DNA from: Planctomycetota bacterium
Lineage (GTDB): Bacteria > Planctomycetota > Planctomycetia > Planctomycetales > Planctomycetaceae
Reading direction: 5' to 3'
NCBI GenBank assembly: GCA_003388505.1
Contig: QQVO01000058.1
Location: forward strand, 1 to 64,000
Length of the DNA: 64,000 nt
This document shows positions 113 to 29,484 of this stretch, one piece after another. Positions within the stretch are counted from its first letter, which is position 1. Each line of letters opens with the position of its first letter. A model generated the notes under the pieces. That model saw only the letters and a list, made by a program, of their open reading frames with translations, did no database searches and was not told where the DNA came from. The translations under genes and the position numbers were made by a program.

Positions 113-560
113 TCCAGGTTCCTCCGTAATCGGTTGTGGAAACAGAAAACGTGAAACCCGTTTTACCTATTCCCCCCAAATAGCGCCAGTCAAAATTGCC
201 GCACCCCCCGTCGCCCATGAGTTCCGATCACATTGTATCCACGATCCTGCAATTCGTCAGCCAGAGCAGCTTCGAGCGCACCAACAATATCACGCACTGG
301 TTTGTGTAAGTCGAATGTTTCCTGTTCGGGAAAGATCGGGCCAATCGCGAGCATCTCAAATGTGCATTGCGACGGTTGGACGTTGATTCTACGGAGTTGT
401 TTTCCGAGTGCGTTGCCCTTTGCGGTCGCCCGGAAGTCGAGATGTTGACCAATGCGAGTGAAGGGAGATGCCGCATTCGCCGATGAGCTATCCCCGGTTC
501 GGCCAACGTAGAGGTAACGATCTTCATTCTGGCGTATGTCCCAGACGTAAATCCAGAATC

Positions 561-570
561 CCCGTTCAAG
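561..570 (+). repeat. Target-site duplication, left copy
   Basis: CCCGTTCAAG directly abuts the left terminal repeat of the MITE and recurs without mismatch at 840-849 next to the right terminal repeat. On the minus strand it encodes part of LLER in the interrupted GIY-YIG gene. Confidence 0.85.
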
Positions 571-839
571 CACGGCAATCGCACGTTCAAACTTTCAAAG
601 TGAGCAACTTTCTCTGGTAGATCCTGCAATCAAGAGAAGTCGGTGCTTGCCAGCCGGAGGTCGACTGCGAAAATGGCGGCCCGAAAAACGGCGCCCCGCC
701 GGTTTCGCGTTGTCGCCTGCGAAAAGACGGGCGACCATTTTCGCGGTGTCCAACTGACTGCCAAGCGTCGAACCGGAACGACAGCGCGGAATTGTCAGAT
801 TTGCACCGAAAAGTTCCGGTTCGACGTGCGATTGCCGTG
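571..839. mobile_element. 269-bp MITE-like element with 16-bp terminal inverted repeats
   Basis: The left end reads CACGGCAATCGCACGT (571-586) and the right end is its exact reverse complement (824-839). The element is bordered by a perfect 10-bp direct repeat, CCCGTTCAAG, at 561-570 and 840-849, as expected for a target-site duplication. It has no plausible transposase. A near-perfect internal inverted repeat pairs GCGAAAATGG near 668 with CCATTTTCGC near 735. Sixteen-base ends with a 10-bp duplication resemble non-autonomous relatives of IS4-type elements, but that family assignment is inference. The host gene reads through cleanly when the element is excised in silico. Confidence 0.85.
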
Positions 840-915: not shown

Positions 916-1098
916 TTAGCTGGCTGATTTGCGCAACCTACGGTTTTCTTGCACATCTTCCATGCTCACGACACGATCTGCATGTTCGCTTTGGGACACC
1001 CTGAGGCGTTCCATCCACTTCTTCAAATCGCCGTTGCATTGATCGAGAATCTTCTGCCGTGCCTGATAAACATCTTCAACAATCGGATCGTCAACCAT
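916..1098 (-). CDS. Putative antitoxin partner of the PIN toxin
   Basis: A 60-residue acidic/basic helical protein beginning MVDDPIVEDVYQARQKIL. It overlaps the 3' end of the PIN-domain gene by 8 bases (ATG at 1098, PIN stop at 1091), so the two are translationally coupled. Small proteins with a DPIVEDV..AR start are commonly found next to PIN genes in planctomycetes and cyanobacteria and are taken as antitoxins; I know of no direct proof for this one. The order is toxin first, antitoxin second, the reverse of most type II modules. No DNA-binding motif is obvious. Confidence 0.65.
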   Translation of the reverse strand: MVDDPIVEDVYQARQKILDQCNGDLKKWMERLRVSQSEHADRVVSMEDVQENRRLRKSAS

Positions 1099-1582
1099 GA
1101 TCGTCTTCCTCGGTTGATTCGAGCAACTCTTCGGGCGTCACAATGACAGGCGTGAAACGGCCCAACTCGGTGTTTGCATCCACCAATCGACGAATTGTTT
1201 CGCCATTCGCGATGTGCCGACAATTCCATGTTACCAAATAATCCATCTCGTAGGCGACGGCAAAGGCGATGTGCAGCAAGTCAGCCCTTGCCCGGCCGAG
1301 TAGCCCAAGGCGGTCATCGTAGGAGTCAACCAAGGCTGCGACGTCATCAGAAAGCTCCAGAATGGGCAAGCCGTCGACGAGTTGTTTCCGGCGATCAGCA
1401 GCATCCCGATCGCCTGCATGGATTTCATCGAGGACGGCTTCCGAAATGTAGAGGTCGAAACGATCGGATGCGGTGCGCCACCATTCATGCGTCATCTGTT
1501 GGTGAGCGGCGATAATCAGATCTCGGCTGGGGAAAGCCGCCAAATAGCTGGGAATCGTCGTTTCAAGATAGAGGGACGGCAT
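1091..1582 (-). CDS. PIN-domain toxin, VapC-like
   Basis: A 163-residue PIN-domain protein, predicted to be a Mg-dependent ribonuclease toxin. Its N-terminus, LYLETTIPSYL, is a common PIN variant in which glutamate takes the place of the first aspartate. The second acidic site is in EAVLDEI, and the C-terminal block ADLLHIAFAVAYEMDYLVTW matches the conserved DxxH region with the end of the fold following (WNCRHIAN). The length is normal for the family. It forms a two-gene operon with the small gene overlapping its 3' end. Confident for the fold; the toxin role is inferred from the pairing. Confidence 0.85.
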   Translation of the reverse strand: MPSLYLETTIPSYLAAFPSRDLIIAAHQQMTHEWWRTASDRFDLYISEAVLDEIHAGDRDAADRRKQLVDGLPILELSDDVAALVDSYDDRLGLLGRARADLLHIAFAVAYEMDYLVTWNCRHIANGETIRRLVDANTELGRFTPVIVTPEELLESTEEDDHG

Positions 1583-1781: not shown

Positions 1782-1920
1782 TCATGCGCCGGGGGGTCCG
1801 TTGGCCAGCCCATCGGCTGGGCTGCGGACTCCGCGTCCGCCCCGGTTCAACACGTGCGTGTAGATCATGGTGGTGAGCACGTCCTTGTGGCCGAGGGGTT
1901 CTTGCACGGCGCGACACTCG
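1782..1920 (-). pseudogene. C-terminal relic of an integron-type tyrosine recombinase
   Basis: In the minus frame ending at TGA 1782-1784 the translation runs [20 protein letters not shown] and continues [15 protein letters not shown] before the stop. This is the box II LGH histidine, the MIYTHVL block with the nucleophilic tyrosine, and the GGxGVRSP tail characteristic of IntI-like integrases. Upstream the frame runs into the 3' end of the DUF4058 gene (stop at 1929), so everything N-terminal, including the catalytic arginine region, is gone. It cannot be active. It marks past site-specific recombination in this accessory stretch. Confidence 0.75.
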
Positions 1921-1928
1921 CCGATGCC

Positions 1929-2708
1929 TCACTTGCCGGATTCCGCAGACAGTTCTTCCTGCCGGCGTCCGAGTTCGGCGCGGTCCTCCGGTTCCAGCGG
2001 CGGGCGGAGGGGCTGAGTATAGTCGAGATCGTAGCGGCCGCGCTCGCGGACTTCGTCAATCAGCGGCTGCAACTCGAGCGTGACGTCGTCGTCGGTCGGG
2101 CGTAGCGGAATCCGGATCGTCGGCAACGGCTGCCAGAGCGGCATCGCGTAGAGTTCCACCCGGTCCCGCTTCGTCGCGCGGAACACGCAGGCCTGATACG
2201 TCGTCAGATGCGACGGGGGAGTCTTCCACTCCGGCGCAAGAAGTTCGCGTGTGCCGGTGCGCGTCAGATCGATCTCGACGAAGTTCACGCCGCCTTCGAC
2301 GCACTCGCGTCGTTTCTGCTGATACTGGTCCCGTCCGTCTCCGGGACGATTGTTCGTCGGGCTGAGGAATTCGATGACCGTCACCACCTGGCGACCAGAG
2401 GCGACGTCGATAATCTCGATGAACGTCTGCGTCATTTCGTATTCGGGCATGTGCACGACCAGCGGCTCAGCGACTACAACGCCTCCTTCTTCTTCCACGA
2501 CCGCCACGTCCGGCATGATGAACCGGTGCGACGGGTCCGTGGGATCTTCCTTCTCGACGATCACCCGTTTCTGAGCCCGGGCTCGCAGGTCAGAGTTCAG
2601 CCTTGGCTGAAGGGCGTCCCGAGCATAGATCGCAAGCGCAGCGTGGACATCGTCCCATTCGCGCTCCAGGTACGGGTCCGTTCCGGGAAAAGGGCTGCGG
2701 TCGGCCAT
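1929..2708 (-). CDS. DUF4058 family protein (first copy)
   Basis: A 259-residue protein starting MADRSPFPGTDPYLE, the hallmark opening of DUF4058. The central VIEFLSPTNN strand resembles the E-x-x-S strand of restriction-endonuclease-like folds such as Uma2. DUF4058 proteins have no proven function. It lies downstream of the duplicated metH 3' end and directly upstream of the integrase relic. It is only distantly similar to the neighbouring DUF4058 gene, so the two are not a recent tandem copy of each other. The start is the ATG at 2708. Confidence 0.85.
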   Translation of the reverse strand: MADRSPFPGTDPYLEREWDDVHAALAIYARDALQPRLNSDLRARAQKRVIVEKEDPTDPSHRFIMPDVAVVEEEGGVVVAEPLVVHMPEYEMTQTFIEIIDVASGRQVVTVIEFLSPTNNRPGDGRDQYQQKRRECVEGGVNFVEIDLTRTGTRELLAPEWKTPPSHLTTYQACVFRATKRDRVELYAMPLWQPLPTIRIPLRPTDDDVTLELQPLIDEVRERGRYDLDYTQPLRPPLEPEDRAELGRRQEELSAESGK

Positions 2709-2762: not shown

Positions 2763-2826
2763 CTACGGATCGTATCCCGGATTCGGCCCCAGCCAACGCT
2801 CCGCATCCCGCACGCTCATCCCGGTC
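2763..2826 (-). pseudogene. Duplicated 3' end of metH
   Basis: On the minus strand this segment encodes [15 protein letters not shown] followed by PGYDP and a TAG stop, the last 20 or so residues of MetH with one change (Leu to Pro). At DNA level 2764-2826 matches 3675-3737 with only 3 mismatches in 63 bases. Weaker similarity continues past both stop codons. The intact metH stands 850 bp away on the same strand, with the second DUF4058 gene between the two copies. Confidence 0.9.
2764..2826. repeat. 63-bp direct repeat, copy A (partner at 3675-3737)
   Basis: Direct repeat of 60/63 identical bases flanking the DUF4058 gene at 2860-3597. It behaves like the duplicated homology arms of a single-crossover insertion, or like attL/attR of an element that inserted at the 3' end of metH. 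Confidence 0.85.
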
Positions 2827-2859
2827 TACGGCGGCGACTTCGCACTCGATCAAAGCCCT

Positions 2860-3597
2860 CTAAATCTCGCCCGACACCTGCGACTTCCATGGTTCCGGAA
2901 ATCCACGCCATGTCTGCTCGTATGTCTCTTCCAGCGGCGTCTGCACGTACCACTCGGTGTCGAGGAATAACGGCATATGAGGCAGCACCTCGCCCACCTG
3001 CAGCGGCTCCACCCACGCGGTCGGTTCCAGGCCCGCCTGATACGATGCCAGCGTCAGCGGTGATTCGGCAGAACCGTCGATCTGTTCCCCCGTCAACTGC
3101 TCCCAGATCGCCGCGTGAATCCCCTGCGGATCGAGCGATCCCGGCGGAAACAGATCGACGACCAGCACGTGACAGCCGTGCTCGATCGCCGCCGTCGCCT
3201 TGTCGACGAACGCGTGCAGGCGCGGGCGGCTGTCCTTGTTGCCGCGAGAGACGATCTCGATCAGCGCCACCACACGATCCCCTTCCGACGAGCGAATCAC
3301 AACGTGGTCCTGCTTGCCGACGTACAGAGGCTCCTGAGCCCGCGACGTCAGACTGACCTGCGGAGGATGGTCGGCAACGGCGATCGCACCGGATTCCGCC
3401 CACGGCACTGCCGGCTCCGCGTGTGAGCGAAGCATCAGCACATCCGGTTCCGCGTCCCCGATGATCTGCTCGCCCGCCGCGTAGAAGCCCGCAGGCAGGA
3501 TGCCGTCGTTCAGGCGGTCGCTCAGCTTGTAGACCCACGAGTTGTGGAAGTGATGAAACATGCCGGCTCGGACGCGCGACCAATCATGAACAGGCAT
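2860..3597 (-). CDS. DUF4058 family protein (second copy, between metH tails)
   Basis: A 245-residue protein of the other common DUF4058 type, beginning MPVHDWSRVRAGMFHHFH, with the core strand VALIEIVSRGNK matching the position of VIEFLSPTNN in its neighbour. Function unknown; a nuclease-like fold is suggested by the shared core. It sits 76 bases downstream of metH and is followed by a duplicated metH tail, so it is best read as a cassette inserted at the metH 3' end. ATG at 3597. Confidence 0.85.
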   Translation of the reverse strand: MPVHDWSRVRAGMFHHFHNSWVYKLSDRLNDGILPAGFYAAGEQIIGDAEPDVLMLRSHAEPAVPWAESGAIAVADHPPQVSLTSRAQEPLYVGKQDHVVIRSSEGDRVVALIEIVSRGNKDSRPRLHAFVDKATAAIEHGCHVLVVDLFPPGSLDPQGIHAAIWEQLTGEQIDGSAESPLTLASYQAGLEPTAWVEPLQVGEVLPHMPLFLDTEWYVQTPLEETYEQTWRGFPEPWKSQVSGEI

Positions 3598-3673
3598 GGT
3601 TCTTCAACACGGACTATCGAGTTTTCCGGGAATCGCAGGCAGAACAGCGTCACTGCCATTGTAACGCCGAGAG

Positions 3674-6600
3674 TTACGGATCGTATCCCAGATTCGGCCC
3701 CAGCCAACGCTCTGCATCCCGCACACTCATCCCGGTCCGCTTCGCGTAGCTCTCCACCTGGTCGCGCGTGATGCGGTCCACCGCGAAGTAACGCGCCTCC
3801 GGGTGGGCGAAGTACAACCCGCTCACCGAGGCGGCGGGCATCATGGCGAAGCTCTCCGTCAGCGAAATACCGGCGTTCTGCTCAGCGGCGAGCAGATCAA
3901 ACAGGTCTCGCTTCCGGGTGTGGTCCGGACAGGCGGGATAGCCGAAAGCGGGACGGATGCCGCGGTACTTCTCGGCAATCAAATCCCTGTTCGACAGGTT
4001 CTCGCTCCCTCCATAACCCCATTCGCGGCGCACGCGCTGGTGAAGATACTCAGCAAACGCCTCGGCCAGCCGGTCGGCCAGCGCCTTCGCCATAATCGAC
4101 TGATAATCGTCATGCTCGGCCTCGAACCCGGCGGCAAACTCCTCGCACCCGATCCCCGCCGTGACGGCGAACGCCCCCACGTAATCGGTCCGCCCGCTCT
4201 CGACGGGAGCAATGTAGTCCGCAAGCGATCGGAAATCGGCCTGACCCTGCCGCTCCCACTGCTGGCGCAGCATCGGAAAGCGGGTCAGGGGACCAGAGTC
4301 GAGGGCTGAGAGCCGAGAAGCAAGGGGCGAAGAATCTTCCGTGAGACTCTTGACCTCTTCCGGACGGGCGCGGCTCGTTGCGTCCACTTCCCTGCGTTCC
4401 GGCGACCAGACAATTACGTCGTCGCCCTCGGAGTTGGCCGGCCAGAAACCGTACACGCCGCGCGCGGAGAGGCGTTTTTCCGCGATGATCCGGTCGAGCA
4501 GACGATTCGCGTCGTCGAAGAGCTTCTTCGCTTCCTCGCCGCACTGCGGATCCTCGAGAATGCGAGGGTACTTCCCTTTGAGTTCCCAGGTGAGGAAGAA
4601 CGGCGACCAGTCGATGTACTCGCGGAGCGTCTCCAGCGACAGGTCGTCGATCACGCGCGTGCCGAGGAACGAGGGCTCGTCGATCTGCTGACTCTTCCAC
4701 TCGCAGCGAAACCGGCGGGCAAACGCCTCTTCGTACGAAACCAGTTTGCGATCCTGCCTGTCCGAGTAGTTGCGGCGGTCGCGTTCCTGGACTTCGCTGT
4801 TCTGCGCCGCAAACTCCTCCCGCCGATCGGGGTCCATCAGTTTTTCGACCACCGGCACGCTCAACGATGCATCTTTGACGTGCAGTACCGGCCGCTCGTA
4901 TTGGGGAGCGATTTTGACCGCCGTGTGGCGCGCGCTGGTCGTTGCACCACCGATCAGCAGCGGGACTTCGAATTCCAGACGCTTCATCTCGCGGGCCACG
5001 TGGACCATTTCATCGAGCGAGGGCGTAATGAGCCCGGAAAGCCCAATGATGTCCGCCTCTTTCTCGACGGCGACTTCGAGAATCTTCTCGGCCGGAACCA
5101 TGACGCCCAGATCGATCACATCGAAGTTGTTGCACCGCAGAACGACGCCCACGATGTTCTTCCCGATGTCATGCACATCCCCTTTAACGGTCGCGAGAAC
5201 GACTGTCCCACGCCCCCGGGTTGCAGCCCGTGGGCCGTCCGCGCGCTCCGCCTCCATAAACGGCTCGAGGTAAGCCACCGCCTTCTTCATCACCCGCGCC
5301 GACTTGACGACCTGCGGCAGAAACATCTTCCCCGCCCCGAAGAGTTCCCCAACAACGCTCATGCCGTCCATCAAAGGCCCCTGGATGACATTCAGCGGTC
5401 GCCCGTATTTCTGCCGCGCCTCCTCGGTGTCGTCATCGATATGGTCGGCGATCCCCTTCAACAGCGCGTGCTTGAGACGCTCTTCGACGGGAGCGCTTCG
5501 CCACTCGGCCTGCGCCGGTCGCTCCTCGTCGCGGCTCTTCGGTCTGACGGTCGCCGCGAACTCGACCAGGCGTTCCGTCGCGTCTTCCCGCCGATTGAGC
5601 AGCACGTCCTCGATGTGCTCCAGCAGCGTCTTGTCGATCTCCTCATAGACTTCAAGCTGGCCGGCGTTAACGATCGCCATGTCGAGCCCGGCCTGAATCG
5701 CGTGGTACAGAAAAGCGGCATTCATCGCCTCCCGCACGACGTCATTCCCGCGAAAGGAAAACGAGACGTTGCTGACGCCGCCCGATGTCTTGGCGCCGGG
5801 ACAACTCTCCTTGATTCGCCGCACGGCCTCAAAGAATTCGACCGCGTAATTGTTATGCTCCTCCATCCCCGTGGCGACGGTCAGGATGTTCGGATCGAAG
5901 ATGATGTCCTCCGGCGGAAAGCCGGCCTGTTCCGTCAGCAATCGGTAGGCCCGCTGGCAGATCTCCAGCTTACGATCGGCCGTGACGGCCTGGCCCTCCT
6001 CATCGAACGCCATCACGACGGCCGCCGCCCCGTACCGGCGAATAAGCCGCGCCTGTTCAAGGAATTTCTCTTCCCCCTCCTTCAGCGAAATCGAATTGAC
6101 GACTCCCTTGCCTTGCACGCACTTCAGCCCGGCTTCCAAGACCTCCCAGTTCGATGAGTCGATCATGATCGGCACGGGAATCCCGCCGTCGTCGCTCACC
6201 AGCCACAGGTACTTCTCCATACAGCGGGGCGAGTCCAGCAGCCCTTCGTCCATGTTGACGTCGAGCATGTTGGCGCCGTTTTCCACCTGGTCGCGGGCCA
6301 CGCCGAGCGCCTCGTCGTACTTCTCCTCTTTAATCAGCCGGGCGAACTTCCGCGAACCGGTGACGTTCGAGCGTTCCCCGATCATGAAGAAGTTGGATTC
6401 CGGCCGGATCTCGTAACGCTCCAGTCCTGAAAACGCTGTGAAACGCGGCCGGTCGGGAATCGTTCGCGGCTTCAATCCTTCAACGGCCTCAACAACGTGG
6501 CGGATGTACTCCGGATCGGTTCCGCAGCAACCGCCGACGATGTTGACCCACCCGTTCTCGGCGAACTCACGAATGAATCCCCGGAACTCTTTGGCGTTGG

Positions 6601-7468
6601 AGTCGAAGCCCCCCATGCCGTCCGGAAGACCGGCGTTCGGATAGCAAACGACGGGTTGCGCGGCGATGTCCGCGACCGCCTCAATGTAGGGCCGCATCTG
6701 TTTCGGCCCGAGGGAGCAGTTCAGTCCGGCGGCGAACATCGGGAAGTGCTCTACAGACGTATAGAACGCCTCCACTGTCTGCGCCGTTAGGGTACGGCCG
6801 CCCGCGAAGATCGTTCCCGAAACGATGACCGGGATGTCCAAATCGTACTGCTCGAGGTGACGCGCGATTGCAAACAGGCACGCCTTCATATTCAGCGTGT
6901 CGAAACTGGTCTCTGGCAGCAGCAGGTCCACGCCGCCGTCGATCAGACCCCGCACCTGCTCGGCATACGACGCAACCATGTCGTCGTACTGGATCGGGCG
7001 CGTTCCGGGCTGGTCCGCGTTGAGCGAGAGTTGGACGTTCGTGGGGCCGATGCTGCCCGCCACAAAACGCGGCTTCGCCGGATTCTGCCGCGTGAACTCG
7101 TCAGCGACGCCTTTCGCCCTTTCGGCGGCCGCCTTATTGACCTCGTAGGTCAGGTCGCCGAGCTGAAACTCCTGAAGACTGATGACGCTGGCGCCGAACG
7201 TGTTCGTCTCGACGATGTCGGCCCCTGCCTCGAGATAGTCGCGATGGATTTCATCGATCAGGGCCGGTTGCGTCAGGCAGAGAAGATCGTGGGCGTTCTT
7301 CAGATCGACCGGGTGGTCTGTGAAGCGGTCGCCGCGGTAATCGGCCTCGCCCAGCCCTTTTTGAAACAGTAATGCACCGAACGACCCATCCAGAACAAGG
7401 ATTCTCTCACTCAGGAGTTCATGGAGCCGTTCACGAATCGGAGATGTTTGTTGCGTTTCTTTGACCAT
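3674..7468 (-). CDS. metH: Cobalamin-dependent methionine synthase
   Basis: A 1264-residue MetH that transfers the methyl group of 5-methyl-THF to homocysteine through cobalamin. All four modules are present: homocysteine domain with zinc cysteines near residues 250 (GLNCS) and 314-315 (GGCCGT); pterin domain ([20 protein letters not shown]); B12 domain with [10 protein letters not shown], His near 766; and the C-terminal reactivation domain ending at the stop 3674. An unusual stretch of about 40 residues (roughly 1020-1062, containing [14 protein letters not shown]) precedes the RQQ motif and is absent from E. coli MetH; it looks like repeat DNA captured in frame. ATG at 7468 has an AAGAGGAG ribosome site. 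It clusters with metF and ahcY. Confidence 0.97.
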
Positions 7469-28887: not shown

Positions 28888-29484
28888 ATGGCCAGCGCAG
28901 TTGATATCCGGCCGATGACGACGGAAGAGTTTCTCCAGCGCGATGCCGAAGCGCCAGAGGACGTGGTTCTGGAGTTGATCCGCGGAGAGCTTCGGGAGTA
29001 TCCCATGACTGTTCGCACGGCGGTGCATTCAATCTGCGTGAGTCGTTTCAGTCGCGAACTGCTCAACTGGTTGGACGAGCATCCGGAACGAAGCGGGGAT
29101 GTCGCGTGCGGTGAGGTGGGCTGCCGTATCGAGCAGGACCCCGATACGACAGTGGGGCTCGACGTGGCGTATTTTGAGGGGGTAACAGCAGACCTACAGT
29201 CTGGCGGAAGTCGCTATTTCGACGGCCCGCCCGTCATCGCAGTGGAGGTGCTGTCCCCCTCCGATACGCATGAGAGACTGAGCGAACGCATCCGTCTGTT
29301 GCTGACGGCCGGTACGAGGCAGGTCTGGGTGGCCGATCCTGAGTTCCGCACAGTGACTGTTCACCGCTCCGATGCGGAGCCGCAGTTGTTTGCAGCCGGC
29401 GCGACGCTGACCGGAACGCCGGAACTGGAAGGCTTCGAGTGCCGGGTGGAACGGTTGTTCAGCCGGGTCCGGGTCGGCGAGTAA
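28888..29484 (+). CDS. Uma2 family endonuclease-fold protein
   Basis: A 198-residue Uma2 (DUF820) protein; ATG 28888 has an AAGGAAC ribosome site, better than the TTG at 28870. It contains MTTEEFLQRD, then the PD-(D/E)XK-like core GLDVAYFEG...VIAVEVLSPSDTHERLSERIR and the RQVWVADPEFRTVTVHR strand. Nuclease activity is presumed from the fold only. Common in planctomycetes and cyanobacteria in many copies. Confidence 0.87.
   Translation: MASAVDIRPMTTEEFLQRDAEAPEDVVLELIRGELREYPMTVRTAVHSICVSRFSRELLNWLDEHPERSGDVACGEVGCRIEQDPDTTVGLDVAYFEGVTADLQSGGSRYFDGPPVIAVEVLSPSDTHERLSERIRLLLTAGTRQVWVADPEFRTVTVHRSDAEPQLFAAGATLTGTPELEGFECRVERLFSRVRVGE

Follow-up and report, generated by a model that had tools for sequence, protein, structure and literature searches.

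A DUF4058 gene between two copies of the metH 3′ end in a planctomycete, and its probable arrival together with a gene tail of its own

In a member of the Planctomycetaceae (Planctomycetota bacterium, GenBank assembly GCA_003388505.1), metH is followed by a small gene of the DUF4058 family and then by a second copy of the metH 3′ end. The stretch analysed, called the window here, comprises 64,000 nucleotides (positions 1 to 64,000 of contig QQVO01000058.1, forward strand). We judge that this gene, DUF4058-2, probably entered on DNA with a metH tail of its own, through homologous recombination that was one-sided or took a single crossover and left metH intact. The same structure recurs at several independent sites in related genomes, an empty site is available at purN, and the paired tails differ, in sum, mostly at synonymous positions. 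Genomes are designated by G numbers (G000 is the genome of the window, the others are related genomes), loci by L numbers and contigs of G000 by C numbers; kinship labels are those assigned by the search tool. On the minus strand the order is metH, DUF4058-2, the second copy of the metH 3′ end and DUF4058-1, made up of the following features, of which both DUF4058 genes score above the Pfam gathering cut-off of 25:

3674-7468, minus strand: metH (B12-dependent methionine synthase), the intact recipient gene, an open reading frame (ORF) of 1264 aa with five MetH Pfam domains
3675-3737, minus strand: proximal tail, the 3′ end now joined to metH, 60/63 against 2764-2826 (homology reaches 3650-3737)
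2860-3597, minus strand: DUF4058-2, the putative inserted cargo gene, a type-2 DUF4058 (PF13267, 29 bits)
2827-2859, minus strand: 33-bp spacer from the DUF4058-2 stop codon to the distal tail copy, the distal junction, as read from the sequence with the repeat ending at 2826
2764-2826, minus strand: distal tail, by alignment the putative displaced copy of the metH 3′ end, with its stop codon at 2763-2765 (homology reaches 2739-2826)
1929-2708, minus strand: DUF4058-1, the next gene after the distal tail (PF13267, 199.6 bits)
1782-1907, minus strand: C-terminal relic of an integrase (TIGR02249, positions 282-315 of 315, 48 bits), considered and left out of the system

At an offset of 911, and without gaps, 60 of the 63 positions of 2764-2826 and 3675-3737 are identical, and both copies read in frame as the MetH C-terminus (ending, for instance, in NPGYDP and a stop), just as an earlier note on this DNA had described. 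The local alignment extends over 2739-2826 and 3650-3737 at 88% identity, with the similarity continuing at a lower level for about 25 bases past the stop codon. A chance match is ruled out by the E-value of the second tail copy in a search of its own genome (E = 7e-25). Two of the differences between the tails are synonymous and one is non-synonymous (L to P in the distal copy), whereas the DUF4058-1 and DUF4058-2 proteins are 21% identical over 147 residues (E = 0.15); the profiles of the two types match at 99% probability. The tails are thus far less diverged than the proteins, as the earlier note had remarked, and the tail duplication is much more recent than the separation of the two DUF4058 kinds. 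An old tandem duplication of tail plus DUF4058 gene, which the earlier note had also discounted, is thereby ruled out, DUF4058-1 and DUF4058-2 belonging to separate subfamilies while the tails are 95% alike; the purN empty site, the cases at other genes and the synonymous bias described below point the same way. An assembly slip seems unlikely because the tail copies differ at 3 of 63 bases and at more after the stop. The word TACAATG follows both stop codons (2739-2763 and 3650-3674) and offers a candidate -10 box for each DUF4058 gene. Across the distal junction, 35 bp (2808-2842) match a coding-looking stretch on contig C20 (86%, E = 2e-4).

Comparison with an empty site was possible at purN. 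In G136 and G165 an antitoxin-like ORF and a RelE/ParE-type toxin come after this gene (toxin-antitoxin families were scanned in G136 only), and then a purN tail copy that keeps frame and stop. G136 and G148 are collinear upstream of and within purN (90% over 1,050 bp) and again from the distal purN tail onwards (2.4 kb, 86%), while the cargo stretch of G136 has no match in the downstream DNA of G148. This collinearity on both sides of unmatched cargo indicates that G148 is the empty site, that the G136 insert consists of the terminal (replacement) tail plus the toxin-antitoxin pair, and that the displaced downstream tail is the old one. Between G136 and G165, the body of purN (codons 110-190) and the proximal tail are both 97% identical and the cargo 93%, against 82% for the distal tails. 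Compared between genomes, five purN copies share 70-83% identity in their last 31 codons and 96-99% in the preceding 227 bp, the exception being the G136/G165 pair with its shared cargo, in which the tails are 97% alike. DUF4058-2 is associated with purN tails in two further genomes: in G097 the purN end lies 17 bases before its start codon and a 105-bp purN tail copy (92%) stands behind it and a set of small ORFs, and in G117 it lies between two purN tail fragments, with a more diverged purN on another contig. The DNA behind the G117 element matches the sequence after purN in G070 (2.9 kb, 77%). By analogy with purN, the proximal metH tail would be the one that came with the insert.

Other genes carry the same structure. 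Direct repeats were sought between the flanks of 127 non-redundant DUF4058 genes of both types, with type 1 undersampled, and a class search covered, among the matches listed, 27 loci (25 to 27 of them distinct from the earlier ones) and 42 genes in 40 inspected stretches; repeats were sorted into tails, palindromes and paralogs by eye, and fragmented assemblies may hide tail copies. In G013, sucC is followed by two genes, a 38-bp sucC tail copy, a DUF4058 relative and sucD (named by eye). In G319, 188 bp of the end of a GH130 gene (89%) stand on both sides of DUF4058-2, the distal copy being frame-shifted, and in G271 and G268 DUF4058-2 is flanked by repeats of the end of an open frame (509 codons in G271, 243 in G268). 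G000 itself has a DUF1501 gene whose tail recurs 655 bp downstream as a 54-bp copy, with an opposite-strand ORF in between. The flanking repeats, 63 bp at metH and 38 to 195 bp at sucC, purN and GH130, differ in length and sequence from site to site. A scan of 0.8 Mb of G000, sorted by eye, gave one clear tail case, that of the DUF1501 gene (L349); sorting by eye found none in 0.4 Mb of G013 and none in 1.07 Mb from 80 named loci of mixed phyla. At the 26 Uma2 loci of G000, repeats were found only between tandem Uma2 genes.

A number of repeats were not accepted as gene tails: palindromic intergenic repeats (L135, L164, L426, L145), adjacent related DUF4058 genes or DUF4058 N-termini (L174, L177, L178, L455, L461), a long repeat outside genes (L185), a repeat behind metH in G054 (L204), one upstream of an mraZ-like gene (L391), a weak 28-bp match in G014 (L243) and shadow-frame matches. 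At the G268 locus (L463) the tail of one gene family occurs three times around DUF4058-2, perhaps as a small array, and the DUF1501 insert (L349:9020-9763, contig C5) has the same GC-rich palindrome at both ends in opposite orientation.

Whether a tail was carried in or copied on the spot can be judged from the kind of differences between the copies. Over seven tail pairs (metH, three at purN, GH130, sucC and DUF1501) we counted 69 differences, 42 synonymous and 27 non-synonymous, an excess of synonymous changes both over the neutral expectation of 0.25 (p = 5e-10) and over the expectation of about 0.38 for a pair with one copy constrained, which is our own estimate (p = 1e-4). Mostly synonymous differences are easier to reconcile with a tail that arrived alongside its cargo than with a local duplicate; summed over the seven pairs, they suggest that the tails probably diverged in separate working genes before they were joined. 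The alternative is a target duplication by staggered breaks, in which a nuclease, perhaps DUF4058 itself, would nick the two strands some 60-190 bp apart, the cargo would be joined in and fill-in would leave two resident copies. Cargo flanked by direct repeats of varying length is what such a process should produce, one case (G355) concerns a gene start, the DUF4058 motif region aligns weakly with the Uma2 family, and metH and G097 alone would fit about as well. We nevertheless regard staggered breaks as unlikely, given that the copies in sum differ mostly at synonymous sites, that G136 and G165 combine the same terminal tail and the same cargo with different displaced tails, and that toxin-antitoxin cargo without DUF4058 is found in the same structure.

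The integrase relic had led the earlier note to favour site-specific insertion that uses metH as its attachment site; the integrase could act from nearby or in trans. Gene 3′ ends are classical integration sites, the integrase tail lies 857 bp from the distal metH tail, and the occurrence of differing cargo at the same purN site would also suit such a mechanism. The similarity of the relic to an integron-type integrase (TIGR02249) covers the last 34 residues and scores 48 bits, against a whole-protein cut-off of 265. Using one integrase of G000 and the relic as queries, which distant recombinases could escape, we found no match either in 156 DUF4058 loci (737 kb, window left out) or in a set of 13 loci totalling 83 kb, of which two were purN loci of the empty type and 11 had repeats (a weak one in one case). 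Unselected DNA gave 5 matches in 4 loci of 1.19 Mb; about none would thus be expected by chance in 83 kb, so that the result speaks for a lack of linkage and not for avoidance. Nor was a common core found at six sites, the shared words of 15 site pairs staying within those of shuffles except for two pairs, one base above the maximum (an 11-base and a 10-base word, each between a single site pair). Break points vary even within purN, where the distal copies begin at 180, 161 and 151 bp, counted back from the last base of the stop codon. On this evidence integration at an attachment site is very improbable, and we take the relic as a bystander; G000 contains seven integron-type integrase matches, some of them fragments. 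Next to the relic, 1091-1582 (minus strand) encodes a PIN-domain-like protein (its PF13470 score of 20 bits is below cut-off) and is followed by a small ORF (916-1098, minus strand), and about 1 kb beyond another integrase tail in G000 (L492) there is likewise a PIN-like ORF (16 bits, below cut-off).

How closely the structure is tied to DUF4058 was assessed in a matched test, whose design was shaped after the first cases had been seen. It considered direct repeats of at least 28 bp with E up to 1e-4, filtered out strongly palindromic ones, dropped genes with less than 300 bp of flank, and used 127 DUF4058-2 genes that are a different set from the 127 of the first flank test. Automatic matches were obtained for 9 of these 127 genes and for none of 210 similarly sized ORFs in DNA of G000 and G013, a control in which the DUF1501 case did not count, its ORF being below the size limit. 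Reading left six loci at five sites, with L135 and L426 (palindromic) and L455 (paralogs) set aside. Neighbouring ORFs in the DUF4058 loci had repeats in one case of 96. Against the pooled controls (1/306), the 6/127 DUF4058-2 loci give p = 0.003 by loci and 0.009 by sites, and the four sites that remain with the window left out give p = 0.027. Because other cargo occurs in the same structure, DUF4058 is a frequent passenger of tail-duplicating inserts and not a proven driver.

At metH itself the relatives are distant, the best full-length ones being 68-69% identical. The C-terminus of metH was visible in 161 of 231 loci, a set that includes overlapping copies of G000 and others and in which the downstream DNA is often short. 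Within these 161 loci DUF4058 stands behind metH only in G000 and G024. The earlier note had suggested looking for other genomes with a tail copy after metH; such a copy was found only in the copies of G000 among the 161, the remaining matches being short or mostly past the stop. The best relative of DUF4058-2 among 150 genomes (51%) lies directly behind metH in G024, with neither a metH tail copy nor DUF4058-1 in the 3.4 kb left to the contig end; the DUF4058-1 relatives of G024 are located elsewhere in its genome. Since the order metH - DUF4058-2 is known elsewhere in the family, that of G024 could be the donor arrangement. The metH proteins of G000 and G024 are 69% identical, and over the time since these genomes parted a 63-bp copy free of constraint would hardly be expected to retain 95% identity. 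A type-1 DUF4058 relative stands in front of metH in G013.

The insertion that we favour would have started from metH followed by DUF4058-1, which on this account would be the earlier neighbour of metH. Incoming DNA, from a relative with DUF4058-2 after metH, would have carried a metH 3′ end with DUF4058-2 behind it. Homologous recombination inside the metH tail would have joined the resident body to the incoming tail, and the other end would have become attached inside the resident tail or immediately upstream of it, by illegitimate joining or, had the fragment first formed a circle, as the result of a single crossover. The outcome would be a metH with a full 3′ end, a resident tail displaced downstream and cargo gained without loss; the latest arrival would adjoin the gene, and the same order is seen at sucC in G013. 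The route of transfer, the metH copy that came in and the enzymes used are the parts of this account that we infer.

Several points weigh against it. The metH tail is 63 bp long with three differences, and alone cannot separate a carried tail from a local duplicate. None of the 40 nearest genomes is of the same genus, and an empty site and a direction at metH are available by analogy only. The GC and GC3 of DUF4058-2 are near those of metH, and its composition is not foreign: of the foreign cassette inserted by single crossover that the earlier note proposed, the crossover insertion finds support in the purN empty site, the other genes and the synonymous bias, and the word foreign does not. 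With purN left out, 16 of 29 tail differences are synonymous, a weak excess over the one-copy estimate (p = 0.045), and the G097 pair, with three synonymous and five non-synonymous differences, has no clear excess. Tails that travel with their cargo are seen mainly in G136 and G165; G097 and G166 share DUF4058-2 (87%), and their last 31 codons are 83% alike against 70-81% for pairs with other cargo, so little above the latter that no link of tail and cargo emerges there. In G355 what is repeated, as read by eye, is not a 3′ end but 33 bp from the start of the following gene. Compared with neighbouring ORFs alone (1/96), the DUF4058-2 enrichment is not significant (p = 0.24), and it is modest overall.

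The DUF4058 protein itself offers a lead towards a nuclease, not proof of one. In 27 relatives of DUF4058-2, E114, K121 and D148 are invariant and K133 nearly so, within a conserved region E...S..NK...K...D that matches Uma2 profiles weakly (51% and 88% probability over 36 and 31 columns); structures of Uma2 proteins have been solved, and one of them bears the name putative restriction endonuclease domain protein. PDB searches gave no match for type 2 and, for type 1, five weak ones (E 0.85 to 1.3) to unrelated-looking proteins, and the predicted structures of the two DUF4058 proteins were unusable (mean pLDDT 37 and 39). No relative was found in the viral contigs scanned with DUF4058-2, PADLOC gave no match for either DUF4058 and a weak one for a sucC cargo gene, and DUF4058 was not found by name in the literature searched. 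One might suppose that DUF4058-2 is a selfish nuclease element, cutting gene-end alleles that are unoccupied and spreading by repair with its own replacement tail, as fungal mitochondrial endonuclease ORFs do. The anatomy is the same as that described for these ORFs in passages of PMC3630166, DUF4058-2 has tail cases more often than the pooled control does, and the conserved residues named above also count in its favour. We think this quite improbable, the relation to nucleases depending on 36 and 31 aligned columns, the structure models being too poor and other cargo occurring in the same structure. Only slightly less doubtful is a wider form of the idea, in which type-2 DUF4058 proteins would be the nucleases of a bacterial selfish family that spreads among homologous gene 3′ ends, cutting alleles still unoccupied and providing them with a replacement tail, with toxin-antitoxin pairs using the same route without cutting; if true, the family would be a chromosomal counterpart of the fungal mitochondrial endonuclease ORFs. 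Elsewhere in the window, a Uma2 gene at 28924-29451 (plus strand) is one of 26 matches in G000, three of which stand in tandem on contig C30, and a 127 aa ORF at 190-573 (minus strand) looks GIY-YIG-like by eye, with no Pfam match over cut-off and no PADLOC match.

The structure described here gives DUF4058 a first genomic behaviour. It amounts to a route by which small genes can take up a place after essential genes while leaving these whole, apparently with no recombinase of their own, the insertion being seen at the purN empty site, and it implies that the 3′ ends of conserved genes may differ in descent from the gene bodies. The minimal mobile elements of Neisseria likewise place varied cargo at one position between conserved genes, but are exchanged by homology on both sides and without a tail copy. 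In the arrays of type VI immunity genes in Vibrio, stepwise additions have been proposed in passages of PMC5361080 to push old 3′ parts downstream, much like the order metH, DUF4058-2, tail and DUF4058-1; there the old effector is displaced, whereas here the housekeeping genes remain whole. Homology-facilitated illegitimate recombination and single crossover share with our cases that one homologous end anchors the DNA and the anchor gene is partly duplicated; the account in PMC3240628, as far as its relevant passages go, describes plasmid DNA integrations in Escherichia coli as mostly single crossovers of circular molecules, with lacZ-end duplications of 109-950 bp in sequenced clones, a laboratory process in contrast to one inferred from genomes. 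Fungal mitochondrial endonuclease ORFs with replacement C-termini (Allomyces atp6; Glomus atp6, atp9, cox2 and nad3; passages of PMC3630166) show a gene body with a foreign in-frame tail, then the ORF, then the displaced native tail, an anatomy that is found at purN in G136 and, by anatomy only, at metH. They encode LAGLIDADG or GIY-YIG endonucleases in organelles, whereas the cargo here is the putative nuclease DUF4058 and also other genes. The kind that our cases fit is insertion with long target duplication, with a cargo family not named in the literature searched: the flanking repeats are long, they vary between sites, and at purN G136 can be compared with the empty site of G148. Such insertions are described for restriction-modification genes of Helicobacter pylori (Nobusato et al. 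2000, Gene, as cited in passages of PMC1643837 and PMC3031569), where small selfish-type genes between long variable direct repeats were likewise found by comparing related genomes. The cargo there is restriction-modification, whereas in the planctomycetes it is DUF4058, toxin-antitoxin pairs and others, inserted mostly at gene 3′ ends whose copies have diverged mainly synonymously.

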